A stretch of DNA of 64,000 bases from NCBI RefSeq assembly GCF_949628265.1, contig NC_088789.1, positions 22,747,883 through 22,811,882 on the forward strand. The letters run 5' to 3'. This stretch comes from Cloeon dipterum. Its lineage: Eukaryota > Arthropoda > Insecta > Ephemeroptera > Baetidae. Under the pieces are notes generated by a model that searched no databases, was not told the DNA's origin, and saw nothing but the letters and a program-made list of their open reading frames with translations. The position numbers were made by a program, and so were the translations under genes. This document shows, piece after piece, positions 2,659 through 46,266 of this stretch; the stretch's first letter is position 1, and each line of letters starts with the position of its first letter.

Positions 2659-5600
2659 GGATTCCTGACGCAAATTTGCCGGGGCCAGAATCCCACTTCG
2701 GAGCCGAACGACGAGACGAAACGGCGTTTCGAGCAGTGGCTCGCCGTGCACCAGCAGCCCACTGGGGTGCACCAGATGATTGGGGCTGCAGCAGTCCCTC
2801 CGCCCCCGCACCCCTCGCCGTCGATGATGGGCCACCACCCGTCGATGGCCTCCCTGCCGCGGCCGACGCCGCACTTCGGCGACCACCGCCGGCTGCCCAT
2901 CTCGCCGACCAAACTAGAATCGCTCGCCCAGCACCCTGGCATGCCCGACCACATGCACCCCGCTTTGCAGGTGATGCTCGCTTCTTTAAAAAATGTAAAA
3001 TGAAATATGATTTTCTGGTGTGCTATAGATATGAGACTAAATTGACCGGAAAATAAGAAAAAATGTTTCAGTACTGATAAAATAGGTGTGCTATTTTTTT
3101 AATTATGCACAGCTTCAAAAGATAAGTTTCTATCAAATTTTAATTAAAGAGAATTCGTGTCATGATTTTTTTAATTATTAGCCAAAATTAACAATGATTT
3201 AATCTGACAATAATTTAGGGCTGTAATTTCTTTTAAAAATGTAAACGAATTTTTCAGATTAATTTTGGACTAACATTTTTGCTTAGAATTCCAAAGTTTA
3301 GAAATGTTTTTAATGCTCCGTGCAAAATTTGACATTTGCACGGATTTTTAAGCATTTTTAGCATATTTTAAACGTTTTCAGCCGGTTTAAAAAGCAGTAA
3401 ATTCGAGCTTTTGTGATGGTCCCATCAGCAAAACAAAAAAACATTCATTCGATAAATAATTTAGCAAGCATGTTACGAAAGCATCTTTTCGCAGCGATTA
3501 GAGTCGACAGAATAGGCAATACGCCGATCACAGCGACTAATCCGGTTGCCTAATGCTCGTGTTGCAGACTGTGCAGAGCCAGTATCCGACGCAGAAGACG
3601 CGGATGCGTACCAGCTTCGACCCTGAGCTCGAGCTGCCAAAGCTGCAGAGGTGGTTCGCCGAGAACCAGCACCCAAGCCGACACCAGGTGAGCTTAACGC
3701 ACGACCCGCATCCTCTGCCAGATTAGGATAACACGAACGCTCATCTGGGCTGGCCTAACACACACGCACGCCGTGAAAATTTTAATGCGCGGGTGGGAAA
3801 ATGGCGTGAACAGCTGCAGCCAAAACTGATTCGCTTATCTCGGGCTATTAATGTTACAACTTTGGCCGTTGATATTTTTCTGATATTTTTCCTGAAAGTG
3901 AGTTAAATAATATTGGAATAGTTTTAAATTAATATTTTCTAATGGACATGTTGGTTTATTTATTTATTTAGAAACTACATTTAAGATCTTTTAAATTTAT
4001 TTATTTAAAACCTTGTTTCACTTTGCGTATATTATTAATATCGATTGCAAGCCAACATATTTAAATTTTATTTCTCATCTGATGTTGAAAAGAGGCTAAA
4101 GTATGTAATAATTTATTATAAACAAATTCTGCTTAACTGCTTTCAATATTGTCTAGTGGCTCATTTAAAAATACAAAATAATTATTATTACAGATAAATT
4201 TTAAAACATATTAAAAAATTAACTAATGAAAAATAACTTTAAAAGAAAATGCACTTTAAACAACATGTTTAATTTAACATTCAACAATATTTTATTGTTT
4301 AAAAATTTGTAATTAATAGTACAGTTTTAATAAGCTCTGTTACCGGACAAGGAAGCTCATATATGATGTCCTATTTTAGCTGCTGAATGTTTTAAACAAT
4401 GTAGTTTGAATCAATTTCATTTAAAGAAATGGTTTGATTTAAAAGCTATTACAATATAATTGGTTTTGAAAAATTAGGTCAAATTTTTGTCTACAAAAAT
4501 TAAAAAAACTGCTTGCACGTTATCGTGCCATAACGATTGAATTCTGGAAATAAAAATATTTCTCTTTGAGATTTTTACTGGGGTCCTGTAAATTGTAAAA
4601 AAAATATTCATACATGAAAAACAACAAGCATCTAAATGCCAATTTTAAGTTCCTATTTCATCAAATTAATTAAAAATCAGCAGTTTTTTGGCAGCTAGGA
4701 ATATAATTATAAATATTGGAATTTACTGAAATATATTTTCCAGGATAAAACAGAAAAATAGGGGCTTTTCTACAAATTAAAAACGACAAATATACCATTT
4801 GGCTCATCGAATAGCATGTCTACCTTTAATATTTAACATCACAGAAGAAATTTGGATTCGATTCACTAAACTATTCCAACGCTAAACATTTTGTTTTATT
4901 TAGAGCTGCATATTTCGTCAAATTATAATAACATTTTCTCCAGTTGTAAAAAATTTAATTTGAAAAACACTATAATTCTTAAAACTGGAAATTTTGTGTG
5001 TGAGTTCTTTTCCGACTTTACATAATATTTTTTATTTTTAACTATAGCGGACTAGATAATGTGAATTGGTCCGTGATGAGCATGAATTATTCTGTACTAA
5101 AAAAGACTATGATTTAAAAATATTAAATTTAATTTATAAATTTAAAAAAGCGTCTTCCGCCATCAGATTTTATTTAGAATTTTTTTGTGGCCGTTTGCGG
5201 AAAACAAAAAAAAAATCATTTTTTGACACGCACCCTTTAAAAACTGAGTTTTGAGTGAACTGAAATAAACGGCATTTGTGGTAATGTTTCAGATCCAGCA
5301 GTACGTAAAGGAGCTGAACGCGCTGGACTCGCGGCGCGGGCGGAAGCCGTTGGACGTCAACAACGTGGTTTACTGGTTCAAAAACGCGCGGGCGGCGCAG
5401 AAGCGGGCCGAACTGCGTCTACACATGAACGGCTACAGCAACGGGCCTTTGGGCCTGGGCGGCGGGCTGGGCGGGCCGAACCACCACATGCACCTGGGTG
5501 GCGGCATGCCGGTGCTCAAGTCGCCGCCGATGAGCCACAACGAGGGCTCGCTGTCCGACGGCGAGGAGGCCGACCTGCGGCGGATGCACCAAATTCAGAC

Positions 5601-6441
5601 GTCGCCCTACTCGCTGGTCACCAACAGCCGCAACTCGCTGCTCAGCCACCTGGCCCGCAGCGGCCGAGACGAGGAGGAAAGCGACGACGACCTGGAGGAA
5701 GAGGAGGACTCTTCGAATCCGACGCCGTCGCGCAACTCGTCCAGTCCGCACGCCAACCAGCTGGAGACAATGTCCAATGAGCAGCCCCTGCAGCTCACCT
5801 GCAATAAGGACGACGACCAGGACAAACGCAGCGAGCCGGACGTGAAGAAGGAGGCGTCGTCGCCCAAGGAGGAGGCGTCCGAGAACGAAGAAGATCAGCG
5901 GCCCAACACGGCGCCGAGCAGCCTCCACGCCGGTTCCCCGGACGACGGGCCGGAAGAGGAGGAAATCCACCGTCCGCCGTCCCGAAACTCGGACTTTGGA
6001 CCCGGAGCCCTGGTGCCCCGCACGCCCGGAGCTCCACTGTCCGACCGCGGCTTTCCGCTGGTGCCCAACAACAATTTGTTCAGCCACAGCATCATGTACA
6101 TGAGCCACTACATCCCCAGTTTGCAGCAGCAGGTGTCAGCGGCCGCGGGGCTCAACCTGGCGGCGGCTGCGGCCGCCGCCCACCTGGCGGTGGCGAACGC
6201 GGACGACCGCCGCAAGCGGAACCGCACCTTCATCGACCCGGTGACCGAGGTGCCGCGGCTCGAGCAGTGGTTCGGCATGAACACGCACCCGTCCCACAAC
6301 CTCATCCTCAAGTACACCGAAGAGCTCAACCGGATGGCCTACAGGCAGAAGTTCCCCAAGCTCGAGCCCAAGAACGTGCAGTTCTGGTTCAAGAACCGAC
6401 GCGCCAAGTGCAAGCGGCTCAAGATGACCCTGCCCCTCTAA
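2659..6441 (+). CDS. dve: Defective proventriculus homeodomain protein, 3' exons (5' end outside window)
   Basis: Three coding exons join in phase 0: 2659-2970, 3568-3687 and 5293-6441 (stop TAA 6439-6441), giving 526 C-terminal residues. Exon one encodes GFLTQICRGQ...ETKRRFEQWL, the region before the homeodomains that is shared with SATB-type proteins, followed by a His/Pro-rich linker. Homeodomain 1 (KTRMRTSFDPELELPKLQRW through WFKNARAAQKR) is split by the second intron and has extra residues (SRRGRK) before helix 3. Homeodomain 2 (RRKRNRTF through WFKNRRAKCKRLK) ends only four residues before the stop. Both have Lys at homeodomain position 50 (WFKN), the class known to prefer TAATCC. Between them are Gly/His-rich and acidic (DDDLEEEEDSS) stretches and an Ala run. 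Known Dve proteins are nuclear regulators of gut, head and appendage patterning. Identity is firm from both homeodomains. Confidence 0.95.
2971..3567 (+). other. dve intron, 597 bp
   Basis: The donor GTGATG at 2971 and the acceptor TTGCAG ending at 3567 keep the frame. The content is AT-rich and I see nothing else in it. Confidence 0.8.
3688..5292 (+). other. dve intron inside homeodomain 1, 1605 bp
   Basis: The donor GTGAGC follows the codons for HPSRHQ and the acceptor TTTCAG precedes IQQYVK, so the intron cuts homeodomain 1 between helix 1 and helix 2. The content is strongly AT-rich with no exon-like segment seen. Confidence 0.85.
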
Positions 6442-7665: not shown

Positions 7666-9598
7666 GCTTTTACATACTCACCCCGGGCGATTCAAAAGAC
7701 ACTAAAGCACATTTTTATTGATTGATATTCTAGCTTATTTCGCGACGCAGTTGTTTAGTTTTGATACGGAGATTGTTGGATTCCTGCTCGGTTGTTTTGA
7801 TTAAGTTTAGAACCAAGGTTATTGGATGAGATGAGTGTTCGAAATGTAGTCACTTTGCCGTTGCTTAATTTATAATTGTGATACTATGTATAGTAAGTTT
7901 TAGACCGCAAAAGACAAGATTCACAATTGGTTGCCAAGCGTTTTTATGATCACCCTTGTTACACACTTTGAGTATTACACTTAATTTTTTTCCTAACGAA
8001 TAAATAAGTGTGTGCACATAAGTTAACTGTAATAAACATTAGTATTTAAACAGAATGTATATGGTCAACAATAATAAAAAAAAACTGAATACACAGAATT
8101 TGCACTGAAGTTTTCCTTCCCTGCTGATCAACCACAGCGGCAGCGGGTCAACTAATGAGAGAATTTATTGCCGGGCTGGCAGCGGGCGTAAAACGCCTGA
8201 GCAAAGATATAAATCAATGTTTGCAGTAATTAAAAGAGCTGCTGTTGGGGAAGACGAGACGTGACCACCCATCATATCTAAGCTGGCAAATCCCGCGCAG
8301 CAAATTTTTATTAGATGGGCGGGCGCGTAATTAATGGACGCGGATTTAACGTTTGTTTGAGCAACGGGTGCGCGTCTTTGTTTAATCTCGAAGAAAGAGA
8401 GTTAGCGGGCGCGCGTGCCTTTGTGCCATTGTTCGTCTCATCTTGTTATTCACGGCGCAAATATTATCCTAGCTCTCGCGCCGGATGGATTTGCCGCCTC
8501 TGACATCATTATCAAAGGATCAGACGCCGGCTCCGCGCGCCACGAGTCAGAAAATCTTCCGATGGAATTACTGCGAGTGTGCTGCGTGCGATACTGATTT
8601 TAAAGAGGAAGCAGCCACGCCACCTGCGTAGCTCCGCAGATGTGCCGGTTGCATACCAAGTTTTGGGTATTGCTGCTTTTGAAAAAGAATCTTCTAACAA
8701 AGTAAATTGTATTAGACCGTGTTTAATCAATTTGTACCTCCGAAGAGAATAAAATTTGTAAAATAATCTCATAGCAGCTACGAAATGCTCAATTTTAATT
8801 TTATTTCTAAAGTTCGGAAAATAAGACTAACTATCAACTGTCTTCTCTGTGCATTTGATTCTCTTTTAGAAACCTTCTAGCACGGCTGCCGTAATAATTT
8901 ACTCATTTTGAACCACGATAAAAATCATCTTAAACTATCTGAAAGACCTTTTTAGACCATCTAAATTACCAATTTTTCTTTTTTGATATTTTTTAAATGG
9001 ATTGAGATATAATTAATAAGTCAGTTTCCAAAGAATTAAAAAAAATAAAACCACGTTGTTTATAGCACCAGCGAATGTCAAATTTGAGAAAGTAAATTAC
9101 ACTGATTTTAATCCTCAGGTTATAAATAATATTTTATTGAATTAAATTCTTTAATAAAGAAAATCAGGCATAATTTTCCTTAACAATTGCGCCTCGTCCT
9201 TCTAAAAATCATTATTAGAAAATTGTTCAATACTATTAAATTTAAAATTAGTTAAAATGTTACAAAAACAGAATTTATGAGAAGATTATTTTCTAAAATT
9301 CTAAATTGTACAGAAATTATAATTGTCCTTACCAAAAATCTGTGGTTTTCATTGTTGGCATACGCAATGAAGAGTATTTTTTCCACTTTCCAGAGAAACA
9401 TTATTTGTTTAAAAATCTTGTAAGTTTAAAATTAATATTCGGCTGAAATTTATGATGTTCTGGTTATACGCGGGAATTTTTGAAATGATTCCTGGACCGA
9501 TTTTGTGTATCTTTAATAAAAATGGTGAAAAGTCCATAAATTGATTAAGGCATTTTCCATTTTCCTTGTTTAGTCGGGAAGCTACATTTCCTTATATA

Positions 9599-9640
9599 CA
9601 CTGAAAAAAATTTTGTGTTCTATTACGAAACGTAGTTGTG
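9599..9640 (+). repeat. Left terminal inverted repeat
   Basis: This 42-bp repeat is paired with 10931-10972 in inverted orientation. The four mismatches are mostly transitions, which suggests modest age. Confidence 0.9.
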
Positions 9641-9867
9641 TAAATCTCGGTGCCACAACCAATAGCGTAATTTTACACAACCATCAGTGTTTATGGTGCA
9701 TAACTGCATTTTGTAGACTAACACATTTTGGTTGTGTAAAATAACACGCATTCATTGTGTAAAATCACACTATAGGGTGTTTCTAATAACACGCGTTTGT
9801 TGTGTAAAATTACAATTCAGGGTGATGTTTAAAATTACACAGCCAAATTAAATTGTAGAATATTTTA

Positions 9868-10544
9868 TTAATAATTTACAAGTGAAGAGGCAGATAAGCA
9901 GCACACATACCTCCCGCTCGATTTCTGACGATGGTGAGAGGCAAGCAGCAAACAGTTATTAGCATCTCCTTTTCGCAGTTTGATGTTCTGTCCTCCCACA
10001 ACAAACTAGTACATATAAGGAAAAATATCTTTTAGATAATTTGGATTAAAATATTGAGAGCGACTTACAGAGGCTTTTTCGTCGTTTTGACCATCCCCTT
10101 TTTCCCTTTCTGCGATTTTATTTAGCTTGGAGAGTTGATCTTCATTCTATAATTCAGAAAATGTATTAAAATATGACGTATGTTTTGGAATTTTATTTTT
10201 TATTTACCTTTATGAGGAAATTTAAACTGGAATATTTTTTACAAATCTTTAAGCAAAGACTCGCAATCCACATCTTCCTCAGTAGAGTATTTCTGGTGCT
10301 TGGCTGACTTCATAATATGAGCTTCCGTTCTCTGGGTGAACCAATTTCAGCTGTACTTCTCAAACGTTCATCCATGGCAGTTTTAGGGCAAATTTTGCTG
10401 TGATCCGTTTTATTTCCTTCAGAATCCTAATTAATGAGTTATCAATCTTTAATTTCACACTGTCCACTCTATTCATATTTTAGATATTCCTACCTCAATT
10501 CCCAAAGCAACATCCTTTATTCGTGCCGAGAAGAGGGTTTCCAT
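9868..10544 (-). pseudogene. Four-exon small gene inside the TIR element, one in-frame TGA
   Basis: On the minus strand four segments join in phase 0 through introns of 67, 61 and 63 bp with GT-AG borders: 10544-10494 (METLFSARIKDVALGIE), 10426-10208, 10146-10069 (NEDQLSKLNKIAEREK...) and 10005-9868 (FVVGGQNIKLRK..., ending SLVNY then TAA). An in-frame TAG sits directly before the ATG, and AATAAA (9869-9864) overlaps the stop. A likely 5' UTR exon ends at the GTGAGT donor at 10656. The only defect is a TGA at 10312-10310 within exon two; the frame stays open on both sides for 38 and 34 codons. Total is 160 residues plus the internal stop. The product is basic and Ser/Lys-rich with no domain I recognise. 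It may be a recently disabled element gene, or the true splicing may avoid the TGA. A further donor-like GTATGT lies inside exon four. Confidence 0.6.
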
Positions 10545-10930
10545 CTAACAGCAAGCATACCGCGCATTAACTGACCTTAAAGAGGAAAACTAAATAGATC
10601 ATTCGGAATTTTCATTAACCACTGCACTATTAATAGTCAATGAAACAAATACTCACATTATTTCGCCTTATGAGACAATGATGCGATCGATAAACGAGGA
10701 TTTAAGGACGTAAATATTTCACAGTTCATGGGGATGATGCCATGATGTGGGCTGTGGGGGCGGAAACGCTAGACGCCTCGATGCGGTGGTGAAGAAAAAG
10801 TAGTCAAGCAGGGCGGGAGAATTAAAAAACGCTCTTAAGTCCTATTCGTTGTGTAAAATCACACAATAAAATTCATCCCAAATAAAAAACACAACAAGAT
10901 TGTGTTTAAGCTCGTCAGGCGCCCAAAAAA

Positions 10931-10972
10931 CACAACCGCGTTTTGTAATAGAACATAAAATTTTTTTCAGTG
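10931..10972 (-). repeat. Right terminal inverted repeat
   Basis: Inverted partner of 9599-9640. It is followed directly by TA, matching the TA before the left repeat. Confidence 0.9.
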
Positions 10973-13900
10973 TAGGGTTTTTTATCTTTTTAGTATCGTT
11001 TTTATTAATCCTTATATATATTTTGTTATAATTTTTAAGCCGGAAGTAGTTAATATCCTGCAGCTTATAAAGTAAACAAATTTTTAATTTTTAAACCATG
11101 CAATTTTTTAAATGTCACTTCAACAATCTCAAAAGTGTAAAATTTCACATAAGTGGTTTAATGTAAAAACTGAACGATCGATAGTTGCTCTATTTTATTT
11201 CAAGAAAAAAATCTACTGACAGTTTGAGTGTAACAAATTAAAATCCCAGGGAGTGAGATTTAAACGTGAGCCGCGCACAGTTCTGCAATTTAATTTTATT
11301 GCCGCCATTAAGGTCAGGCTTGAATTATTATTACACCGGCTTGCTCGGGCGGGCAGGCTTTTCAAAAAGAGGGTGGGTTGGCGAGGATTTGCCGTAAAAA
11401 TGCGAAAGACAGAGCTGCGCCAAGGACGAGAGAGAGAGAGAGAAACAGCTCGGCATTATTGTTTATAAGTATTTTGGAGTAGGCTTTGGCGACTTCTGAT
11501 GGATGAGAGGAGCTATGAGTGAAAAGAGAGGCAGCAGCCAAGATCGCGAGAGCGCTTTCCTCCTTGAGCCATAAAGCAGCAGCAGCAAGAAGCGAGCGGC
11601 GCAGACTGACTGCGAGATGTCCGCCGCCGCCGGAGGGAGTAGTACATAAAGCTCTTTGCAAATAATCCCTAACAATAGATCGCCAAGGCCAAAAGGAATT
11701 ATGATAGGGCTTATGCAGTACAAACACAAGATACCCATTTTTCAGAGGTCTTACTCGCTCCGCGGCAATCGAGTATTAAATAAATAGAGCACCACTTGCC
11801 TCGCTGCTTTTTGTTTCTTTCCCGAGACACACACTGACGGATTATTGCGTTCCTGCCAACATCCAACTCCCTGTAAAAATTGCGATTCGAGATTCGATCC
11901 CACAAACCCACACCAGGGAGAAAAAAAGTACATTCCTTAGTTTCTAATCATCCTTTCATTCATTGGAAATTGACTCGCATTTTCAGATAAAATTCCAACA
12001 TTGCTTCTTGGAATTGCTAAATGGACGCTTTAGTATCGAGATAATAAATTTAAAACAAAAAAGTAGAAATTTTTCGAGGAAAGGTTTTTCAAATTTGAAA
12101 ATTTAAAACAAAGCTTTTGAATCAAAATTTTCAAACAATAGAAATTTGTTAATATAGTTTATTTCCTATTTTTTATCCCTTAATTTCTTGTTAATATTTT
12201 AGCAGGGAAATGAATGCAATTGTTATTGTTCGCAATTGAATTGTTAGTTTAAAAAAAATACTTGAAACCAACCCTAAGAAATAAAAGCCAAAAAATATTT
12301 TTAAAAAGTATATGCTTAAACATCTCATTTTATCCAGATAGATTTGATATCATCTGAAATTGTTCAACTTTTTGTTGAGCACTTAGAGGCTTATTTGAAT
12401 GATTAAGCAATTTTAAATTTAAACAAATTTTTTTAATTTTCAAACATGAGAGTAATTTTTATTAGTTTTTATTTTTAAATATCTCAAAAATAGCGGCATC
12501 TTCAATTTTGTTCTGAAAATGGGATGAAATGTTGCTCCAAGTTTGTAACAGGTCTAGAAATTTTCAAGATGGTGGACGATTAGTTTTCGAGGTCAAAGGT
12601 TCAAATAAAGGTGATTTTTAGATTAGAGGGTGAGTCGTGAGAAAATCTAAATTGCACGATTGGTCGATTTTTACCCTCGGAAAGGTGCTTCTGGTCATCC
12701 TTGAGTTCAGACAAGATCATTGGAACCAGTAATAATTCAAACCCTGGCGTCAGGGTAGGTCTTGAGGATCGATATAATTAATTTTCCATTGTATTAACGA
12801 CACCTGACGGGCTCTGTATTGGTTCGATTTGCAAGATTAGTTCACCGTTGGAATGGCCAAGTCGAAAGATTTCAGAATATGTGCAATTTAACCCTTTGAA
12901 GCTATCAGGGTGCTCAGGAAATGTGCCCGTAATCCCGTTCCTGAATATAGTTTAATTTATCTTTATTACATAAATCTCCTCGCGGGTATAATTGAAATTT
13001 CAGCTTTATATCTATAGCATAACATATTTCTTTTTTAGACTAAATTTTTGATTCGCTTAAAAAAAATGGGTGCTTGACTATTCATGACGCGCCCACAATT
13101 GATTAAACTGCATCTTGGGGGGTGGCTGTGGCGAGGCAAGCGAAATCGCGTACATCCTGTGGTAAGAGCTGGCCTATTTCCTCCCTAACAACCGACTTAA
13201 CTAAACTGCTGCACCCTCGGCAGCGGTGGCACGTCTTGGGGCTGCTGCTGCTGCTGCTTTTCCTGTGCGCGCAAGACCATTTAATACTGATTAGCTTTTT
13301 AAGGTCGTTTTTATTTCCACGCGGCAGCAGCTCCTTTTTCCACCCCCTGGCACCCCCGCCCGCTTCATCTTATTTTAATAGCTCCTTTTCACTTAATCTG
13401 GCTTAACTTTTTATTTTGCTCGTTTCCCTGCCGCACGCTTAATATGAAATATCAAAAGAGCACTGCTGCTGCTGCTCTCGCGCCACCGTCATAATAATCA
13501 TCTCGCTCAAGAGCTCCCACTCTCGTCATACTCACTCTCAGCACCGACAATAATTTCGCGTCACTCCTTTTACGCTCTTCCTCAGCAAATCCTTTTTCCC
13601 GACTCGTTACGCTTGCCCAGATGAGACGGTTCAATTTCGGAGCCGGGGTTTCGATTCGTTTTTGTATTTGTAGCACAGCTGACAATAAGAAGCTACTTCT
13701 GCTTAAGCGTTTTAAATATGTTTTTTTATATATATTTTTTGTACGTGTGTTATGTATCAAATATTATTTCACATATTTTGTACCTGCTCATTCCCGTTCT
13801 TCGAGATTATCATTGTGATGTCAAATTTTGTTCCTAACACAATTATTATAATTTATAAGGCCAACAACTATGATGAATTTTAAAAAAAAATTAACTTTAT

Positions 13901-18312: not shown

Positions 18313-18318
18313 TTTATT
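18313..18318 (-). terminator. Poly(A) signal overlapping the stop codon of the repeat-protein gene
   Basis: AATAAA on the minus strand shares one base with the TAA stop. A second AATAAATAAA lies about 20 bp further on. The 3' UTR is therefore predicted to be very short. Confidence 0.65.
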
Positions 18319-19874
18319 TAAAGTTCAGTGTGGATAATGGTGGCCTGGTTGTGGAGGCGAAGCTTATTCCTCAGGGTTTGAAGGCGTTCGAGGATTGTGG
18401 GGGGTGCTTGTTGTTGGGTTTGGGGAGGCTCGGTGGTGGGTTGGGGCGGGAGTTTCGTTTTGGTTTCAGGATTTTTGGTGAGGGGCTGTGGCTGTGGGGG
18501 CTTGGTCGTCCCCAGAGGTTGGTGGCGACCTCTGGGCTTCCAGGTCTTTGGGCGCGTGATTCGTTTTTGAGAGAGTTGTTTTCGTTGCCAGCCTTTTTGG
18601 GGCTCAGTCTGTTGCCGCTGGTGGCGGCGGTAGTGTGTTGGGGGCAGGGGGCGTTTGCCGACTTTTCGAGGCTGTCGGGGATTGTTCCAGGTCTTTGGGC
18701 GAGTAATTGTCATCGACTGTCGCCTGCGGGGGCGTTGGGGATTGTTTAGGGGCCGTGGGGGTTGGTCTCTTTCCCTGCGAGGGAGGCGGAGTGGGAGTTT
18801 GGGCTGTGTCTCGGTTCGGGGGCGTCGCTGCAGGCCTCGTTGTGTCTGAGCCCGTCGCCAAGTTCTTAGCTGGTTTGTCGGGGGCAGAGGGAGTTCGTCA
18901 TTTTGGTAGAGCTTTCGGGGGTTGTTCCAAGGGTGGGATTTGTAGCTATTTGCTGGTGGGGAGGTGCGCCAGGTGCGGCGTTGGGTGTTTGTCTGTGGCA
19001 GGGGGCGTCTGCCGACTTTTCGGGGCTGTCGGTTATCGGTCTGGGTGTTTGGGCGAGTGATTGTCAGCATTGTCTGTCGCCTGTGGGGGCGTTGGGGATT
19101 GTTTAGGGGCCGTGGGGGTTGGTCTCTTTCCCTGCGAGGGAGGCGGCGTGGGAGTTTGGGCTTTGCCTCGGTTCGCGACCGTCGCTGCAGGCCTCGTTGG
19201 GTCTGAGCCCGTCGCCGAGTTCTTAGCTGGTTTGTCGGGGGCAGAGGGAGTTCGTCATTTTGGTAGAGTTTTCGGGGGTTGTTCCAAGGGTGGGATTTGT
19301 AGCTATTTGCTGGTGGGGAGGTGCGCCAGGTGCGGCGTTGGGTGTTTGTCTGTGGCAGGGGGCGTCTGCCGACTTTTCGGGGCTGTCTGTTGTCGTTCCG
19401 CGTGTTTGGGCGAGTGATTGTCAACATTGTCTGTCGCCTGTGGGGGCGTTGGGGATTGTTTAGGGGCCGTGGGAGTTGGTCTCTTTCCCTGCGAGGGAGG
19501 CGGCGTGGGTGTTTTGGCTGTGTCTCGGTTCGGGGCCGTCGCTGCAGGCCTCTTTGGGTCTGAGCCCGCCGCCGAGTTCTTAGTTGGTTTGTCGGGGGTA
19601 GAGGGAGTTCGTCATTTTGGTAGAGTTTTCGGGGGTTATTCCAGGGGTGGGAGTTGTAGCTATTTGCTGGTGGGGAGCTGCGCCAAGTGCGTCGTCGGGG
19701 GTTTGTCAGGGTTCGGTCGTGTCTAGTGTCTGAGGTCAAATACTCATCGTTTCCTTGGTCTTCTGGGGTCCATTGGGGGTCTATCCTTGTGTCCTGGTCT
19801 TCCGGGGGCCATCGGGCGTCGATCTCGTAGAGGGTGCAGAGCAGCATCATCGTCAGGGCGATCGTGGTTCTCAT
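18318..19874 (-). CDS. Secreted Arg/Pro/Thr-rich repetitive protein (unrecognised)
   Basis: Intronless frame of 518 residues. The start at 19874 is chosen over the in-frame ATG at 20030 because it lies about 80 bp after a TATA box and opens with a signal peptide: MRTTIALTMMLLCTLYEIDA, probable cut before RWPPEDQ. The short N-terminal part repeats the motif W(P/T)PEDQ. Residues 61 to about 416 are three 119-residue repeats beginning RRTWR(S/T)SPPANSY and containing HPWNNPRKLYQNDELPLPP, RRERDQ and PRKVG. The C-terminal tail is Pro/Gln/Thr/Lys-rich and ends IIHTEL. Multibasic sites (RTRRRA, LPRRERD, KVGRRP) could be cut by furin-like proteases, so it may be a multi-peptide precursor. A structural silk-, glue- or cuticle-like protein is an equal possibility. 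I recognise no family. The mRNA strand is strongly C/A-rich, which also leaves long spurious frames on the other strand. Confidence 0.7.
   Translation of the reverse strand: MRTTIALTMMLLCTLYEIDARWPPEDQDTRIDPQWTPEDQGNDEYLTSDTRHDRTLTNPRRRTWRSSPPANSYNSHPWNNPRKLYQNDELPLPPTNQLRTRRRAQTQRGLQRRPRTETQPKHPRRLPRRERDQLPRPLNNPQRPHRRQTMLTITRPNTRNDNRQPRKVGRRPLPQTNTQRRTWRTSPPANSYKSHPWNNPRKLYQNDELPLPPTNQLRTRRRAQTQRGLQRRSRTEAKPKLPRRLPRRERDQPPRPLNNPQRPHRRQTMLTITRPNTQTDNRQPRKVGRRPLPQTNTQRRTWRTSPPANSYKSHPWNNPRKLYQNDELPLPPTNQLRTWRRAQTQRGLQRRPRTETQPKLPLRLPRRERDQPPRPLNNPQRPRRRQSMTITRPKTWNNPRQPRKVGKRPLPPTHYRRHQRQQTEPQKGWQRKQLSQKRITRPKTWKPRGRHQPLGTTKPPQPQPLTKNPETKTKLPPQPTTEPPQTQQQAPPTILERLQTLRNKLRLHNQATIIHTEL
18627..19694 (-). 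repeat. Three tandem 357-bp coding repeats
   Basis: Units run approximately 19694-19338, 19337-18981 and 18980-18627. Landmark CGCCTG sits at 19435, 19078 and 18721, exactly 357 bp apart each time, which is 119 codons. The third unit diverges toward its end and appears one codon shorter. High identity implies recent expansion or gene conversion. Confidence 0.9.
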
Positions 19875-19951
19875 TGTGGCGTTCTGAGCAGGAGAGTAGT
19901 GCACTGTTCCAGGAGTTGGCAGTGTTTGAATTGTTTCCCGATTGTAACCTC

Positions 19952-19960
19952 TATATATAA
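19952..19960 (-). promoter_or_regulatory. TATA box of the repeat-protein gene
   Basis: TTATATATA on the minus strand lies about 78 bp before the ATG at 19874, leaving room for a start site about 30 bp downstream and a 5' UTR of some 50 bp. A strong TATA and no intron suggest a highly expressed, tissue-restricted or inducible gene. Confidence 0.6.
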
Positions 19961-20120
19961 CCTTGGTTTGATTGTTGACGACAGTGCAACAATACCAACA
20001 ATGAATGTGGCATTGATTACATAATGACATTAACCCAATAATACCTTACAAAACAATGAAAATTACTATGCACATGAGTGGCATTGTTTTGTATTTTTTT
20101 AAATTAAAATAATTATTTGA
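19954..20120. repeat. Direct repeat, promoter-side copy
   Basis: Partner of 18012-18175. It includes the TATA region and about 150 bp upstream of the gene, sharing GTGCAACAAT, CAACAATGAATGTGGCATTG and AAAACAATGAAAATTACTATG-like stretches. The two copies bracket the gene in direct orientation. Confidence 0.8.
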
Positions 20121-35266: not shown

Positions 35267-38200
35267 ATGGCTGCCCCAGATTCCCAAAGGGGCCACGCGG
35301 ACCCCGTCCCAGAGCAGGACGAGCCAGCCACCGTCCAAGACTTCCTGCTTGACCCTGAAAGCCCTGAAGCAGGTATGAAAAGCTGAGTTCGCCAATATTT
35401 CAATGCGCGGTTTTGTGTTTTTCACATTTTTTCCTAATTTTACATACAGATTGAAAGATTATATCTTGCCCCAAACAGAACCAAGGCAGTTACAATGAAA
35501 AATTCTAAATTTTTATAAATATATTTTGAAATTAGTCGCAATGGATTTGATTTTTTCTAATTAATTCTTGACAATGAGAAATCCAACATTTTTTTAATAT
35601 TTTGTATCTGTTGTGTCTCGAAAATTTACGAAAAATAATCCGCAAAAACCAGTTGGTTTTACCTAAAAATGGGAAAAATTATAGCCTTTGTTCATTTTTA
35701 CGAGAAGTTTTGCAAAATCTTTAAAAGAAATGCCACAAAAATGCATAAGTTAGTCAAATTTTGCGCTCCAAAAATCATAAACATCGCCGTTTTTGTCTGT
35801 TAAAACGATAATTTCAACTAGAAAAACTAAATATTTTGATTCTCCGCAAAAATCATTTTCGCTTTTGAAAAATGAACCACCTGTTGCAAAATGAACCAAG
35901 ATTAGAATTTTAAAAAGAACTGCAATTTTTTTAGAGTGACGATGAAGAGTTGTTTGAATTAATTATCTGACACATTCAGAATAAAATCCTCTTTGCCGAA
36001 AGTATTTCGGATCGAGCAGCAAGCAGCACTATTTCGCTTGTCGTTTATCCCGGATGATTTGCAGCCTCGGCGGTGAACAACGACGAGGCGCTGGAAAAAG
36101 AGACGCGATGCGGCTACGGATTCGTGCGCTTCCCCTGGCTGCAGAGATTTGCCAGCAAAAAGGCGTACGTCGTGATTTACGGCATGATCGGCTGCTTTCA
36201 GTTCGCCCTGGCCTCCTATTTTGTCGGCACCATCAGTACAATGGAGAAACGCTTCCAGATCCCCAGCACCTTCTCAGGTAACCCTTTCTCCGCCTCAAAC
36301 TGAAGAGGAATTTCTTACAATTAGGATGCTGTATTTTTAAGAGTAAGGAAATTTATTCATTGGATTAAAACTGAACGGTTTAATAAATATGCCCGTTTGA
36401 AATAATGCTTTAAAAAGCGAATTTAAAAGCCAATGTGTTTGTTTAATTACTAAATTTGTTGACTCTATTTGACAGGCAAGACAAATTAATTGATGTGCAA
36501 TGTCTTACTTTCCGCAGATTTTCCTATTTTTTGGGTGGAAATTTTTTTAATAGCTTTCTTTCAATAATTGTTACAAATGCTAATAATTGTCTAAGTTGAT
36601 TAGCACCTATCTTAATTTATTTTTTTAAATTTAAATGAATTCTATATTTATTTATTCCATTTTCAAATATTTTAATTTTTGTTAAAATACCATAAATTAC
36701 CAGAAAATTTTTATCTGCATAGTAAAGATAGGAAGTTTGATCAGCTTTCAGATTATATGGACTTTTTGCACTATTGATTTTATAAAAGTTATTGAGCCCA
36801 AGACAAAGCTGTATTAAGTAAAACAATGATTAATTCTCTTCCATTTCGACTAAAAATGGCTCAAAGATCGGTTTTCTCATTAAGTATGTTGAACAAACAA
36901 AACATCAAAAATAATTAACTAAACCTGTATTTCTAAATTTATTTTGAAATTGATTTTCACATTTTTAAACCTCCGTAAATTCATAAAAATACATCACATT
37001 GAAAAATGTCAAGTTGGTTCACTTCAGATCAAATGTAACATGCAATTAATTTGTTGTTTCTCTTTTAATCAAGGGGTGATCAACTCGGCCTGGGACTTTG
37101 GGGCCATGTTCACCAACCTGTCGGCTGCCTACCTGGGCAGGTCGAGTCACAAACCTCGCTGGGTCGCGTGGGGCACCGTGCTTGTCGGAGTTTCGTGTTA
37201 CATGCGTCTCATTCCCCACTGGCTGTACGGGCCCGGCGAAAACGCTCTCATGCTCACCAAGGAGTTTGGCACGGAGTTCAAGCCGCTAAACGAGTCGGAT
37301 AAAACAGGTGCCAAAATTTGAGTCCGAGCTTTCAATTTAATTGAGGAATTATCAAAAGTCTTTTTAAATGAATTTGCCATTTAGGCATATTTTAATTACG
37401 ACTATTTGGTAGCTTTAATTAGCACTGTTTTTCAAAAATAAAAAAGTGTTTGAGGATGCAAGCCTAAAAATATATTTTTCAAGAAGGAAAATCTCATCTG
37501 TTGTGTCGGCTATGATAGGCTGAACCGATTTTGGCTTATAGTAAATTAAATTAATACTCTTTTTAAGTATTTATTGGCAGTAAATTAAGGATTAAATCTA
37601 AGAGGATACATAGCGGAAATATAATTCTAAATACTGTAGTCTCATCTTTGGAAGCTTCGAACAATAAGGATTTCCTCAAATGGCAACTTCTGAGTAACAA
37701 AAACTAAATAAAATAATATTTAAATCCTCAAATCATTTCCTTCGGAATAAGGAATAACCCTTTTTTTAATACTTTGTCTCTTTTTTCTAAAATTTTTTGC
37801 ATTTTATTAAATTAAAATCCCTCATCAGGTCCAAAGCTGACCCTTTGTGGCAACAATCACCTTGAGTTTGAGGACTGCGATAACGCCAGCTCGGGCAACA
37901 TTTCCGCGTTCATATTCCTGGCCGCTCATATCGTCCTGGGGATCGGCTCCTCTGTCTACTACACGCTCGGAATTTCCTATCTGGACGACAACGCCAAGAA
38001 AAACAAGGCCCCCGTCCTCTTAGGCGAGTTGTGATGTGAACATTCCCTGAGTTCGGTGTGCGAATAATTTGATTTCAGCCATCACCATGTGTTTGAGGAT
38101 GGTCGGCCCCACCATGGGCTACATGCTGGCCTCGTACGCCCTCGAAATGTACGTGGACCCCCTCCTGACCCCCGTCATCACGCCTAAAGATCCCCGCTGG

Positions 38201-41142
38201 GTCGGTGCTTGGTGGTTTGGTATTGTAAATTTTCTTTTTTTGCAGGCCCAAAAGTAAGAATTATATCAAAAGAAGTTTCAATTTACTCGCAATTTAATTA
38301 GATACTGCAAAAAAATTTAATAGCGAGTGAATTCATATTTATTTTGATATATTTTACTTTAGAATGACAGGGAAGTGATAATTTCCTCAAATTATCGTGT
38401 AAATATTTATGTTGAAGGTTGGTTCCCGTTCGGCACGATAACGCTGGTCCTGGCTCTGTTTGTGGCCATGTTTCCACGGAGTCTGCCCCGGGCGGCCCAG
38501 CGCAGTGCGGCTGCCGCCTCGGCCGCAGGACGTACTTACAACCCTCAGGGAAAAACTAAAAAGTCAATAGCAGGTAAATGAACATAAATTATTAAAAATA
38601 ATCAAATGATTATGAAAAACAGCCTCCAGCATTATAAAAAAGCTTTAATATTTATTTAAAATGTCTCTTGAGTGGATTGATACAGGGCATAAATTGAAAA
38701 TTATTACAATTTTAAAAAGTTAACAAAGCTCAAAAGAGGTCCTTTGAATAGATAAAATTCAAAATTTGTAAATTTTCTCCATAATTTACAGCGTTTGACC
38801 ATATTTTTCTCGGCAGATTACAACTTCTCCCGTCGAGATCTATTAAATGGCGTATGATACTTTTTTGGGGAAACTCTTTGATGTGAAATAAAATCAGATC
38901 TCAAGTAGAGAAACAGTTAGTTTGAAAAAAAGCTAACTTTTTTGTTACCTTTCTCAAAATTTTACGACGCTCGTAGGTACATTTTGGCATTACTGAATCC
39001 TAAGAGATAATTTCATACATTTCGGCAACAAGGATTTTCAAGGGTTTTGCTTTTGCAATTTCAATCATCTTTAATATTTGAGGTCGATTCTGGAAAAAAA
39101 TTATTTCTGTCAAATTCTATTTTTAAATTAAATAATTATGCTCAAACATCCTATATTTCCCAAATTAATATAATTTCATTTTAGATTTCAAGGCGACAAT
39201 ATCCCGCCTGTTGAAGAACCGCGTGCTGGTGTGCAACAACCTGAGCACGATTTGCTTCGTCTTCGGGCTGATTGGCCAGTGGACATTCATGCCGAAATAC
39301 ATGGAGACGCAGTTCCACCAATCCGCCTCGACGGCCAGTCTAATTAGCGGTGATTATTTCACATTTCTCCCTTGCTCTTGAGCAGAGTTTACAATTAAGA
39401 GGCTTTGCACTTTTTAATTACCATGAGTCTGAGCTCTCATTAGCAGAGTTTTCGATGACTCTCGATCGGCTGGAATTTAAATATTCAATTTCAGGCTCGG
39501 TCGGCTTGCTCTGCACGGCGGCGGGACTCATGGTGTCGGCACTGCTCATTTCCAAATTTAAACCCAACGCCCGCGTGCTTGCCGGCTGGAACGTGATCGC
39601 CGAGTCACTTGACTGCTGCGGATTCCTCCTCCTCACTTTCATCGGCTGTGAGACGTTCAACTTGCAGGGCACTCCCCAGTCCGATGGAACGTAAGCACAC
39701 GCTCCTTTGATTTTTTTTCAATTTCTTCTTAATAAAAAAATAACCTTGCTACAATGAGAATTCAAGTTTTGCCAATTTTCTACAAAATTTAAACCAGGGT
39801 CCATTTTTGCTTTAAATTAAATTCTTAGGAATTGGGGTTTAAGCATTTGCAACAAGAAATTTCTGATGATTTGCTGTATCAATACTATTAAAAAAAATGT
39901 TTGGTTCCATATTGTATGATAATTTAAAACTGGATTTTTGTTAATAGCGATTAAATACAAAATTATTTTATTATCTAAAAATATTAACAGTTTATAATAT
40001 GTTTGTTAATCTAAAGACTTGGACTGGAGGTAGACTGCAACTCAAATTGCTCCTGCCCTGACTCGCTGCGGTATTCGCCGGTGTGCCACACACCTTCGAG
40101 AACTACCTTTTTCTCGCCCTGCCACGCCGGTTGTACAGATGCTGAGTGGGGGGAGGGTAACTCATCTTTAAAGGTTTGTTGAGTATTTTTTTTAATTAAA
40201 TTTACATTTCGTGTCAAAAGTAAGCTGATTTTTATAGCATCCAGTAACAGGGATTTTTCAAATTTACAATAAGATAATGGAGTACGTGCGTAATGTTTAT
40301 TAGAAAAATTTATCGCTATAATGGTAATAGAATACTTTGAGAAGTGTTAAATTTTTGTTAAGATTATACAATAATTTAAAAAAAGCAGTTAATTTAAAAT
40401 TGATATAATAAATATTTATTAATCATTCACTAATTCATCACTTATTTTTAGATCTTCTCTAACTGCTCATGCGTCCCGGACGGTGGTCCGATTCTGGACG
40501 GTCCATGTGCAGTGGACTGCAGCCAGGCATTCATGCTTTTCGTCATAATCCAGTGCGTGCAGCGCTTCCTGGGCGCCACCGGAAAGGCTGGCAACACCCT
40601 GATCCACTTCAGGTGTGTCGACCCTGAAGACAAGCCGGTAGCGATCGGTCTGTCCGAGTTCCTCCTCTGCATCTGCTCGTTCATCCCCGGACCCATCCTC
40701 TTTGGCTATCTAATCGGTAAAATATAATTATTTTCTAATTCAATTCTTCCAAATTTAATTTAATTTTAGACTTGTCCTGTCTGGTTTGGGGCCAGACGTG
40801 TGGAAAGCCTGGAAATTGCTGGCTGTACGACGTGCAAAAATTGCGATACCTCGTCAATCTGCCCATCGTGGGTGAGTGCGAAAAATTAAAATATAAATAA
40901 TATTTCGTTTTAATTGAAATAAAGGTTGTTTATTTTTTGGCACGCTCTGGGACGTCGGAGTGTGGCATTACGTCAAAGGGGTCCAGTTGTACGATGAGGC
41001 TGACGAGAAGGCAAGCAAAAAAAGGTCCAAAGGTGACGTGCCCGAGGACAGGAAAGTTTCGTATAACACGATGGCTCTCATGACCGGCAGTGATCCCAAT
41101 ATTTCAGCGAATGAGTTTAGAAGAAAAAGCTACAGCTCGTGA
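35267..41142 (+). CDS. Organic anion transporting polypeptide (Oatp/SLCO), copy 1
   Basis: Twelve exons: 35267-35372, 36065-36277, 37074-37307, 37829-38023, 38079-38219, 38418-38573, 39185-39349, 39495-39690, 40017-40173, 40452-40716, 40770-40871, 40925-41142. They give 715 residues. The family transports amphipathic organic anions (hormone conjugates, eicosanoids, drugs; ecdysteroids for one insect member) across the plasma membrane with 12 membrane segments. Evidence is the family signature DPRW(V)GAWWFG at about residues 287-297. A Kazal-like loop rich in Cys (CNSNCSC, YSPVC, FFSPCHAGC) lies at about 475-510. Also present are NNLSTICFVFGLIGQWTFMP and FIPGPILFGYLI. The start follows an upstream region without a longer frame (MAAPDSQRGHADPVPEQDEP). 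Intron 4 has a GC donor (TTAG|GCGAGT). It is more diverged than copies 2 and 3. Substrate cannot be told from sequence. Confidence 0.93.
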
Positions 41143-41164
41143 TACACCACGTCCATTAAATTAT

Positions 41165-41170
41165 AATAAA
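41165..41170 (+). terminator. Poly(A) signal of Oatp copy 1
   Basis: AATAAA lies 23 bp after the stop codon; a second AATAAA follows at about 41177. Confidence 0.6.
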
Positions 41171-41464
41171 ACAAAAATAAATTTATTTTCTTACTGGAGA
41201 ACAGGTTTTGTTTTATTGGTGTTCCCATGCGGCTATTATTTACAAATTAAAATAAGACCTCCGTGAGTCTTCAAAAATGACAGGAAGTTTGTAAGTAAAT
41301 CTTCACAATTGCAATTGTGCCATTGTAATTGCAGGACCATAATTTTCTCACTCTCATCGCAATCATGTTCAAATGTGCTGCGCGTTTGTTCAGCCTCAGC
41401 GATTCAAGGTTGCTAAAAAACATGCAGCAGGTCGTGGTGGGGAGCTCGCGAAGCGCGGTGATTT

Positions 41465-41703
41465 TTATTTGCTCGGTGGTACCGCGGTGCTCGTGATTAT
41501 TTCCATCGGTCTTTTCACGAATGCAGACCAAGCGGTAAAAAAGTCGGTATTCCCGAGGGATTCTAAATTAATCGAAGTATTAGTGAGCAGACGTGGACAG
41601 GCGGCGCCTGAACACACACTTCGGATCAGACACATATCTTTGCGAGAGGCTAGATAACAAGCAAGAGAGTAGTGCCTTTTTTGCGCAACTCTTTCGAAGA
41701 TAA
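41465..41703 (+). promoter_or_regulatory. 5' region of Oatp copy 2, duplicated before copy 3
   Basis: This stretch before the copy 2 start matches 46045-46266 before copy 3 (shared GGTGGTACCG, TTAGTGAGCAGACG, GGCGGCGCCTGAACACACA and TTGCGAGAGGC). It should contain the promoter and 5' UTR. No TATA box is obvious. Confidence 0.5.
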
Positions 41704-44700
41704 ATGGATACAGAAACTGAAACTGACGAATCTCCAACGAATGCCATCACCAGACGAGGTGATGCTGAGGCTGAATCTCTGTCAGGAAAAGATGCAGGTG
41801 AGAGAGATATGCAATAATTAAAATTTTGTCCTAGAAATAATTCATTTTGCCTCTGGGTGTGAACGCAAAAGTTTAAAGGCGCGTCTCGGCTGACACGGGC
41901 ACCATGGGCCAAAAATAGCATCTCAGCAGTTGGGGGCGTCTGATCAGGCGATCTGCACGTGTATACACAATAGCTCAAATAAATTTATTAGACAATCATC
42001 GCAAGACTATTTTTAACCAGCAGTATTTTCAATTATAAAATATAAAAAAACGTAATAGGTCTACTCTAAGATGGACTAAGGATGATTTTTTTAATTCGGT
42101 AGTAAAAAATTATTAAATACCGTAATTTTGTACTGTACAGCAGCTTTTTTCGCCTTTCAGCCTACAAATCAGTAATACGTTTCCTTAATAAAAATTAATA
42201 AATCTAATTATTACCTGCAGAGAATTCTGGAAATTAAAAATTAATTCATATTTGTGTGAATTTTCTCCAGATTGACCATCTATACAGGTCATTTTCTCAT
42301 AGCTTGAACAAAAAGATTCACGCCTTTGGTTCGATTTAATTGGAAAATGACTTGTGTATGGACATCCAATAGAAATAATCAAGTTTTATCTTTTTCTCCA
42401 GATTACCAAGAAGAGACGAGATGTGGTCTCGGGCCGTGCAATTTCGACTGGTTGCAGCGATTCGCCAGTAAGAAGGCGTACGTGGTGATGTACGGCCTCG
42501 TAGGGATGTCTCATCTGGCCATTACCTCGTATTTCCGAGGAACAATCAGCACTCTGGAGAAGGAGTTCCAGATCCCCAGCTCCTTTATAGGTGCTTATTA
42601 TGCAACGCGCAAAACTGTAGTGTTCGACTGGTTGCATATATTTCTCATTTCTCAAATATCGCTTTTTTTAAGGGTTTGCACATTATACCACTATAGTTTT
42701 TTCGGGGAAATTTTATTTTTCCAGACGGTGGATATCTTTAGAAATTTTTGCTAAGCTATAGTCAAACCCTGATTATTCTTCAAGGTCTGATTGGCTCTGC
42801 CGGCGACATCGGTTTGATTTTAACCACCCTAAGCGTGACCTACCTTGGAAAAAGAAGCCACAAGACCCGTTGGGTCGCGTACGGAACCTACTTAGTTGTG
42901 CTGTCTTGTTTTATCCGTCTCATCCCGTATTGGTTGTACGGCGGGGGACAGTCAACGATAGATTACTCCAAATCAGAGTTAACAACTCAAAAAAATAATA
43001 TCACGCGTAAGTAGACCTCTCAGCAAAGTTTTTACTGTATTGATTTGGGTTATAAAAATTTGCAGATCTTTGTGGAAAGAGCTTTAAGGAGCCTGAAAAC
43101 TGCGAAGATGCCAGCTCTGGGAGCGTGTCCGCCTACATCTTTCTGATTGCTAATTTCGTCCAAGGATTTGGTTGCTCCATTTATTACACACTAGGAATGG
43201 CATATCTGGACGACAACGCTAAAAAGAGCAAAGGAGCCGTGATGATTGGTACTTTATTTAAGACTCATGACTTGAGATGGGAATTTGGATATTCGAATAA
43301 ATTTACACTTCAAGTCCTTAGTTTGGTGCTCACTATGTTTGGATCCACAATCGGATTTCTTCTGGCCTCATTTTCATTGAAGTTCTACATCGATCCGGGA
43401 GTCACGCCAGACTTTGGAACCACCGACCCACGATGGATTGGCGCCTGGTGGCTTGGTAAAAGGTTTTTTTTAAATATCTTGTAAAACTAATTTAGTTTAA
43501 TAGGTTGGGGACCGTTGGGCGTGATGACTTTGGTTTTTGCAATCATGATGAGCATGTTTCCTCGAACCCTTCCACGCGCCTTGCAGCGCAAAATGAAGGC
43601 AGCCGTTGCAGCTGGTCGCTCGTACGTTCCAGAGGAAATTCCAAAACCATCGTTAGAAGGTATTATTAAATCATCCGCATTTAATTTTTAAAAATTGCAA
43701 CTTTATTTGCAGATTTTTGGAAGACCATGAAGCGATTGTTTAAAAACAAGATTCTGATGTGCAATAACTTAAGCACGACTTTTATCATATTTGGCTACGA
43801 TGGACAAATGCTTTTCTTACCAAAATACATGGAAACTCAATTCAATATTTCTGCCACCGCTTCAAACCTCGCAACAGGTGCGTATCTTTAATTTAACACG
43901 TTTAATAAAAAATTGACGATATCGGTATAGGCTCGATCGGTCTCCTTTGCACCGCTGCGGGCCTTTTAGTCTCTGCCTTCTTTATTTTCAAGTTCAAGCC
44001 TCGTGCCAGGTACCTGGCGGCGTGGAATGTTTTTACTGAAATGATGGATGTGGTCGGGTTTCTCTCCATATTGATGATTTCGTGCGAAAGTTTGAATTTC
44101 CAGTGGTCTACCTTGCCTGATGGAGGGTATTTTATTTAAAATTGATAAATATTTATTAAAACTAATTTAAATCTCTAGTAAGACCATCGACATGCCTTGC
44201 AATTCAAATTGTGCTTGTGACAGTTCGATTAAGTACTCTCCCGTCTGCCACGTTTCCTCCAGAGAAACGTTCTTTTCGCCCTGCCACGCGGGTTGCCAGG
44301 ATTCTTTCTTCAGCCAAAACGGAACCAAGGTACCGTACTCAAAATTTAAAACTGGGAACTGTCCCACCGCCAGTGCTCGTCAATTCTGGAATTCTCAATA
44401 AAAGTTTAATTTATGAGAGGATAAACAATTTTTTTATTGTTTTTCGTTAAGAATGCGGCCTTTTGTGAACTCACCAGTGACTTTGTGGGCATTTCAGGTC
44501 TTTTCGGACTGCAGCTGCACGGCTGACAACGGGCCAGTCTTGGACGGACCGTGTCCCCTGGACTGCCGGTCGGCATTTATAATCTTCATCGTTGTCCAAT
44601 GCGTGCAGCGTTTTTTGGGAGCCACCGGAAGGGCGGGAAATTGTCTTATTCAGTTCCGATGCGTCGACGTAGCAGACAAAGCTGTGGCATTTGCGCTTCT

Positions 44701-45139
44701 CGAGGTTTTGCTCTGCATTTTCGTCTTCATCCCAGGCCCCATCTTATACGGTCACCTCATTGGTATTGAGAAACAGATTTAATAAATACAGTTAATTCAA
44801 AAATTATATTTTGAAGACATGACGTGCACTCTCTGGGGAATGACGTGCGGCAAAACAGGAAATTGCTGGATCTATGATGCGGACAAACTCCGATACTACG
44901 TGTACATGCCGATCTTTGGTTTGATTTGAAATTTTAATTTGGGATAAGAGTTTGAAATGCTGTGCTCAGGTTGTCTGTTTATCGGCACGTTGTGGGACAT
45001 TGGAGTCTGGTACTATGTGAAAGATTTGCAAATGTATGATGATGACGAACCTACCAAAGACTTTGAGCTGAAAGATTCGAAAGCAAGGGATAAAAAGAGT
45101 CGCTTCAAGGCGTTAGCAATTGCATTTGGAGGCAACTAA
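41704..45139 (+). CDS. Organic anion transporting polypeptide (Oatp/SLCO), copy 2
   Basis: Twelve exons: 41704-41797, 42402-42590, 42785-43006, 43066-43248, 43315-43455, 43504-43659, 43713-43877, 43931-44126, 44179-44329, 44498-44762, 44817-44918, 44970-45139. They give 677 residues starting MDTETETDESPTNAITRRGD. All introns are GT-AG; several are tiny (48 to 66 bp). The signature TDPRWIGAWWLGWGPLG is at about residues 264-280. The Kazal-like Cys-rich loop (CNSNCACDSS, YSPVCH, FFSPCHAGCQ) is at about 455-490, with the later Cys-rich part DCSCTADNG and CPLDCRS. The exon structure and phases are the same as copy 1. The nearest relative is copy 3, to which most exons are nearly identical. A probable intron follows the stop within the 3' UTR. 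Function is inferred as sodium-independent organic anion uptake, substrate unknown. Confidence 0.94.
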
Positions 45140-45160
45140 ATGTTCGTTTCACAATTTCAG

Positions 45161-45247
45161 GTGAGAAATTAATCATTAATCTTAATTCGAGTATTCTAAT
45201 GATTCTGCACAATTTTAATAAAAAAAAAAATTATTTTCTTGTTGCAG
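45161..45247 (+). other. 3' UTR intron of Oatp copy 2
   Basis: TTTCAG|GTGAGA lies 21 bp after the stop and TTGCAG ends at 45247. Copy 3 has the same donor and acceptor. A stop only 21 bp before the junction should not trigger nonsense-mediated decay. AATAAA at 45337-45342 would end the transcript. Confidence 0.55.
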
Positions 45248-45926
45248 ATTTTTGAGTACGCATTTGTGACACAGAAGATGGGAAACGCAACTCATTTCAA
45301 AATTAAGATTTTCAAAATAATGAGTAAAACTATTTAAATAAACAAACAGAAAGAATTTATTTACACCAAGTTAAAACAAGCGATGTTGGCAAGTGTGGGG
45401 CAAAGTTATATCCTGCTGGCCCATAACAATAAACAAAGCTGAACTTAAAAATATCTAGTTTTTGTTTAATATACCCTCAGTGTATTTTCGCAGAAGAGAT
45501 TTCCTTATTATCTGCGTTTTTCTTTTATTATTAAATAATAGGTTTTAACTCAATATTCTGACCTTCGAAGGTCATTCAATATTTTCGCAAAAAATCATTA
45601 CATTTAAGTTAAATAGCAGAAATAGCCAATCTTGAATATACAAATTGTTTATCTCGAAAGAAAGATAGATAGAGACCAAGTATTTACTGCCCGTAGTTAA
45701 AAGTACATAATATCATTGTGTGGCAAACAAATAAGCAAAAGTGTTCTCAGCGCATTGGTTATTTATATAATAAAAAAAGACGCAGAAGAATGTTTAACAA
45801 AGATCATCTTTCATTGTCAAGCAGAACGTAATGAGGTCAGAATCGCACTGTCTCAATAATTTTCTGTTGGGAAATGTTTTGCAAAATTATTACAAATTGC
45901 ATTTCAAATTCTTATTGACAAAATAA

Positions 45927-46044
45927 GCTTTGGGACGTCGGAATGTGGCATTACGTAAATGGGGTCCAGTTGTACGTACGACGAGGATGACAAGAGAGCG
46001 AGCAAAAAACGGTCCATAGGTGATGTGCCTGAGCCTGAGGACAG
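45927..46044 (+). pseudogene. Fragment of the last exon of Oatp copy 1
   Basis: GGGACGTCGGAATGTGGCAT, then GGGGTCCAGTTGTACG and GAGCAAAAAACGGTCCA, match the end of exon 12 of copy 1 (about 40943-41052). A GTAC insertion shifts the frame and the segment stops abruptly at GAGGACAG, where it joins sequence equivalent to 41465. About 410 bp that separate these parts before copy 2 are missing. It is a non-functional relic that dates and delimits the duplication. Confidence 0.9.
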
Positions 46045-46266
46045 TTTTCTCAGTGGTACCGTGGTGTCCGTGATTATTTTTCCGCCGGTCTTTTCACGCA
46101 GACCAAACCGGTAAATACCAAGGAGGTCTAAATTAATCGAGACATTAGTGAGCAGACGACGTGCAGACGTGGACAGGCGGCGCCTGAACACACATAGGAG
46201 CAGACACATAATATCTTGCGAGAGGCGAGATAACAAGCGAGAGTTTTTCGCATCTTTCGAAGAAAA

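Follow-up and report, generated by a model that had tools for sequence, protein, structure and literature searches.

An apparent four-exon gene within a terminal-inverted-repeat transposon of the mayfly Cloeon dipterum is interrupted in every full-length copy examined

The locus and its surroundings

The window analysed here is a whole stretch of 64,000 nucleotides of the Cloeon dipterum genome, and several genes can be placed along it. A homeodomain gene was identified at 5269-6438 (+), the stretch that was tested, and a GCN1/EF3-type HEAT-repeat gene occupies about 51500-61000 (-), where 56123-57154 was tested and the wider extent was judged from open frames. Segments of an OATP transporter are recognised by Pfam at 43056-43481 and 50010-50498 (+), within a region of about 36900-50500 (+) in which similar open frames recur, suggesting tandem duplication. 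At 18318-20045 (-) there is an open frame of 575 amino acids with many Arg, Pro and Gln residues; it has no Pfam match, contains a 357-bp tandem repeat of 3.0 copies (18643-19707) and lies in a patch of 53% GC, with a strong GC skew of 0.35, amid an otherwise AT-rich region. Rfam gives no match in the window at the gathering score.

The subject of this work is a DNA transposon with TA at either end, inside which a spliced gene of four minus-strand segments had been proposed. The features of the element and of the proposed gene are the following:

9597..10974, minus strand: non-autonomous element with terminal inverted repeats (TIRs), 1,378 bp, TACACTGAAAAAA...TTTTTTCAGTGTA, recognised from its inverted repeats and from four further full-length copies and partial sites in the genome
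9597..9641, plus strand: TIR arm, 45 nt, 91% complementary to the arm at 10930..10974
10930..10974, minus strand: opposite TIR arm, 45 nt, from the inverted-repeat comparison with 9597..9641
9665-9681, minus strand: subterminal motif resembling GTTGTGTAAAATNACAC (motif scan, at most two mismatches)
9731-9747, 9754-9770, 9799-9815 and 9824-9840, plus strand: further subterminal motifs resembling GTTGTGTAAAATNACAC (motif scan, at most two mismatches)
10848..10864, plus strand: subterminal motif at the opposite end of the element (motif scan)
10494..10544, minus strand: proposed exon 1 (METLFSARIKDVALGIE), with real borders and unsupported coding status
10208..10426, minus strand: proposed exon 2, containing the TGA (10312-10310), the bases of which recur in the other copies covering the place
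10069..10146, minus strand: proposed exon 3, with GT...AG borders
9868..10005, minus strand: proposed exon 4, whose last part lies beyond a deletion (about 51 bp, with its junction near 9913)

The ends TACACTG...CAGTGTA are found in all five full-length copies, with flanks that differ from copy to copy, and the two TIR arms are identical at 41 of 45 positions in four of the five; in the copy called C2a below, one A has been lost from a run within the TIR, which lowers the ungapped identity of its arms to 22/45. TA is present at both ends of all five copies, but a TA target duplication is not proven, because the same TA also belongs to the palindromic TIR; one full-length copy has TTCTA on both flanks. 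Five of the six subterminal motifs in the element are near one end, and elsewhere in the window the motif occurs once, with three mismatches. These motifs may perhaps be bound by a transposase.

Copies in the genome

The search covered 190 Mb in 10 contigs, and the copy counts are lower bounds. At least five full-length copies of 1,378-1,442 bp were found, namely the window copy, C1:40769377 (C1), C2:1959691 (C2a), C3:4453572 (C3) and C2:36233021 (C2b), whose identities to the window copy over aligned columns are 99.5% (C1), 98.2% (C2a), 93.2% (C3) and 93.6% (C2b). The C1 copy lies on another contig and is nearly identical to that of the window, and therefore movement has been recent. At least 14 further sites are partial or of lower identity, including C5:5.70 Mb (C5b), C3:2.80 Mb (C3b), C3:2.79 Mb (C3c), C1:33.98 Mb (C1b) and C5:4.78 Mb (C5); the two on C3, at 2.789 and 2.798 Mb, represent old copies without the other end. 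Ten of the 19 sites entered the alignment, and the nine omitted are end fragments, far relatives or the insertion-interrupted site at C1:36.59 Mb. Taken together, the inverted repeats and the homologous copies establish that the TIR element is real, as the original prediction had stated: several copies share a uniform architecture, the family has spread recently, and none of the copies examined holds an intact version of the proposed gene.

Divergence is distributed unevenly along the element. C3:4453572 and C2:36233021 differ from the window copy by 2-3% over the last 274 bp and by about 8% in the interior; for C2b the counts are 5/274 against 79/965 (Fisher p 6e-5), with a weaker contrast for the first 130 bp (3/130; p 0.012, or p 0.08 when C2a replaces the window copy). 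Low divergence of the ends between subfamilies would be explained either by their conservation through transposase selection or by exchange between copies, that is, a mosaic origin.

Older relatives are also present. Three stretches (L063:835-1238, L064:969-1314 and L064:8447-8293) are 70-75% identical to the end region on the ATG side of the element, which is joined there to other repeated sequence. A relative with the same ends, 1.33 kb long, is located at L065 (C1:36593353-36594684), and its interior holds insertions that on inspection resemble foldback sequence rather than additional exons; one of these falls in the stretch separating proposed exons 1 and 2.

The four-segment chain

The chain is present as it had been described. 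A minus-strand ATG at 10544 follows an in-frame TAG, the four segments have GT...AG borders, the intervals between them measure 67, 61 and 63 bp, every join is in phase 0, a terminal TAA overlaps AATAAA, and a single TGA interrupts segment two. The claim that such a chain is unlikely by chance is not sustained. A loose rule allows a chain up to three GT-AG introns, each in phase 0 and 55-80 bp long, and no more than one stop. The longest such chain on the minus strand of the element has 162 codons, and 160 codons or more are reached by 29 of 300 dinucleotide shuffles and by 40 of 104 overlapping stretches elsewhere in the window, both strands counted. Under a strict rule, chosen after the sites had been seen (donors no weaker than the weakest observed, YAG acceptors), the observed 161 codons are attained in 2 of 500 shuffles of one strand, in 7 of 300 when either strand is allowed, and in 3 of 26 other non-overlapping window stretches, some of which may hold real exons. 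The chain is therefore mildly unusual and not compelling, and it needs support from the other copies.

The open frame is kept in none of the five full-length copies, in which the longest frame from stop to stop is 89 amino acids. The original prediction had named the lack of any other copy preserving the frame as part of what would count against it, and essentially this was found: the C1 copy keeps the segment lengths, but besides the TGA it contains an additional TAG. In C2a the TGA is likewise present, and the fourth segment differs in length and ends in a stop, so that the frame is lost in exon 4. Segments two and three carry indels in C3 and C2b, which also have several stops and shifted frames. 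The whole model, without stops or frameshifts, is absent from all 10 aligned copies and fragments, five shorter fragments included.

The TGA had been taken as a sign that a single copy is decaying. This is not borne out, given that TATGAAG is found in all seven of the aligned copies with sequence at this point; it lies in the proposed frame in three, namely the window copy, C1 and C2a, and is out of that frame in the others, where the frame is shifted upstream. In the window copy, segment four owes its end to the deletion of about 51 bp, which among the aligned copies is common only to C1, so that the protein as drawn is that of two near-identical copies and is interrupted in both. Since these two copies have moved recently with stops in the frame, their recent movement did not need the protein.

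Divergence between copies points in the same direction. In none of 12 copy pairs is there a difference between exons and introns (Fisher p 0.13 to 1.0; window against C2b, 39/434 in exons and 17/191 in introns), although the relatedness of the copies makes the pairs non-independent, with shared history and repeated counts. Indels in the four full-length pairs that show any number 20 in exons against 0 in introns, the exons being 2.3 times longer, and over all 12 pairs they number 87 and 29, respectively. When variants are counted per column over the ten aligned rows, introns exceed exons (83/191 against 131/440, p 0.001); this contrast arises because three fragments are counted, two of them with unrelated flank in the intron columns, and it is lost without the three (48/191 against 100/440, p 0.54), as well as when counting is restricted to the five full copies (21/191 as opposed to 51/440, p 0.89). 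Five blocks were tested for codon structure following the most protein-like frame of each segment, a choice that favours finding a signal, and changes at the three codon positions amount to 26, 26 and 25; 23 are synonymous and 53 nonsynonymous, that is, 30% synonymous against the 21-28% expected without selection. These comparisons show no coding constraint during the divergence of the present copies, the earlier existence of a gene being outside the reach of the test.

Origin of the interior

With a limit of E 1, a protein search of the genome placed 26 of 26 rows inside copies or relatives of the element, and with a limit of E 10 it placed 32 of 32 there; scoring is confined to the best candidates of a first look, and a distant parent might therefore escape it. 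No Pfam family matches the proposed translation or its pieces above the cut-off (one, PSP1, lies far below it, E 0.14), a PDB search returned two matches at E 0.9 and 2.3, neither of them credible, and a scan of viral_contigs with segments three and four produced 10 stretches by pattern, none of which was confirmed. The description of the element as non-autonomous and without a recognisable transposase is supported, and a transposase relic, if the interior holds one, is not recognisable from its sequence. The genome search with translation and element that had been proposed as a check did recover copies of the element, but none with an intact frame.

The reading that we consider very probable is that of a small MITE-like but long (about 1.4 kb) orphan family of non-autonomous transposons, moved in trans and with no functioning gene inside. 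The four-segment reading would then be a product of chance in AT-rich DNA or else a gene fossil, dead before the present copies spread. The latter deserves consideration, since the strict chain appears in so few one-strand shuffles; in a specific form, the fossil would be the own gene (transposase or accessory) of an autonomous parent, and the family an internally deleted, decayed derivative that keeps old exons and introns. Besides the rarity of the splice chain, this proposal can draw on segment four, which is open for at least 45 codons in seven of the nine aligned copies that have it, and on other segment-two frames of older copies, which by eye look protein-like and are broken by single stops. 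The lack of a credible match in Pfam and PDB, of any longer relative with the same ends and of a codon-level signal speaks against it, and we regard it as possible but rather unlikely. It seems improbable that what survives in the interior is the remnant of a gene with introns, uncharacterised and without a match in Pfam or PDB, which encoded a transposase or accessory protein in an otherwise lost lineage of autonomous transposons. If the fossil reading were true, an autonomous element encoding a protein not yet described could exist in related species.

Pack-type elements, such as Pack-MULEs, are TIR elements that capture gene fragments, and the mayfly element resembles them in being a TIR element whose interior has been proposed as gene exons. 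Capture of a host gene or gene fragment would fit intron-like gaps within a transposon that lacks a transposase; however, among the best candidates scored no parental gene was seen outside the element family, and capture was therefore rejected and is given a very low probability. A further difference from Pack-type elements is that the flanks have no long target duplication. A functional small gene carried by the element under selection, to which the phase-0 joins, the start and the poly(A) signal might point, is hardly credible, as stops or frameshifts are found in all five full-length copies, exons evolve like introns, and divergence matches the expectation without selection, with no bias among codon positions. 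Neither of the two gene-based interpretations of the original prediction, a multi-exon gene that still works or a gene taken from the host, is supported.

For the genome itself, the non-autonomous family adds one small TIR family to the repeat annotation and has little further import. More generally, where multi-exon genes seem to appear in AT-rich transposons, sister copies should be compared before capture is called.

Related elements and mobilisation

The element begins with CACTG after TA and has subterminal repeats, two features that recall CMC (CACTA/Mirage/Chapaev) elements, whose ends begin with CACTG and which have subterminal repeats; the length of the target duplication is not proven here.

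The non-autonomous family would be moved by a transposase made elsewhere, which would bind the TIRs, and perhaps the subterminal motifs too, and would move the element in cut-and-paste fashion to TA sites, with duplication of the TA target. A mobilising partner would have ends that begin with CACTGAAAAAA. The genome searches for an autonomous element that shares the ends of this family recovered none. A 36-base end pattern occurs at 11 places, all of them ends of the five copies or of two fragments (0 in the control). An 18-base end pattern, with two mismatches allowed, occurs at 151 places and its reversed control at 181, and among the matches listed of these 151 no new inverted pair at an element-like distance was seen; in the regions around the older relatives, the end search likewise found no longer element bearing both ends. 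On these searches a longer autonomous element in this genome was rejected. The subterminal motif occurs at 23 places in the genome against 9 in the control, and 13 of the 23 are in known copies or fragments.

Aphids are known to have low-copy orphan MITE lineages about 1 kb long, for example the Tc1/mariner sublineage MITE1.1 sub2 (PMC5490172), so that the mayfly element is of an ordinary kind. The two are alike in their length of about 1 kb, in having two ends and few copies of similar size, and in lacking both a transposase and a full-length partner in the genome; they differ in TIR sequence and in the array of subterminal motifs of the mayfly element, whose superfamily is not established.

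Tc1/mariner elements insert at TA (PMC5490172). The mayfly genome has 49 DDE_3 matches, which from the Pfam family and their length would be of the Tc1/mariner type; 11 of them are in frames of 343-344 amino acids, two of these 11 being below the Pfam cut-off, and one example of such a copy is located at C5:13339900-13341700.
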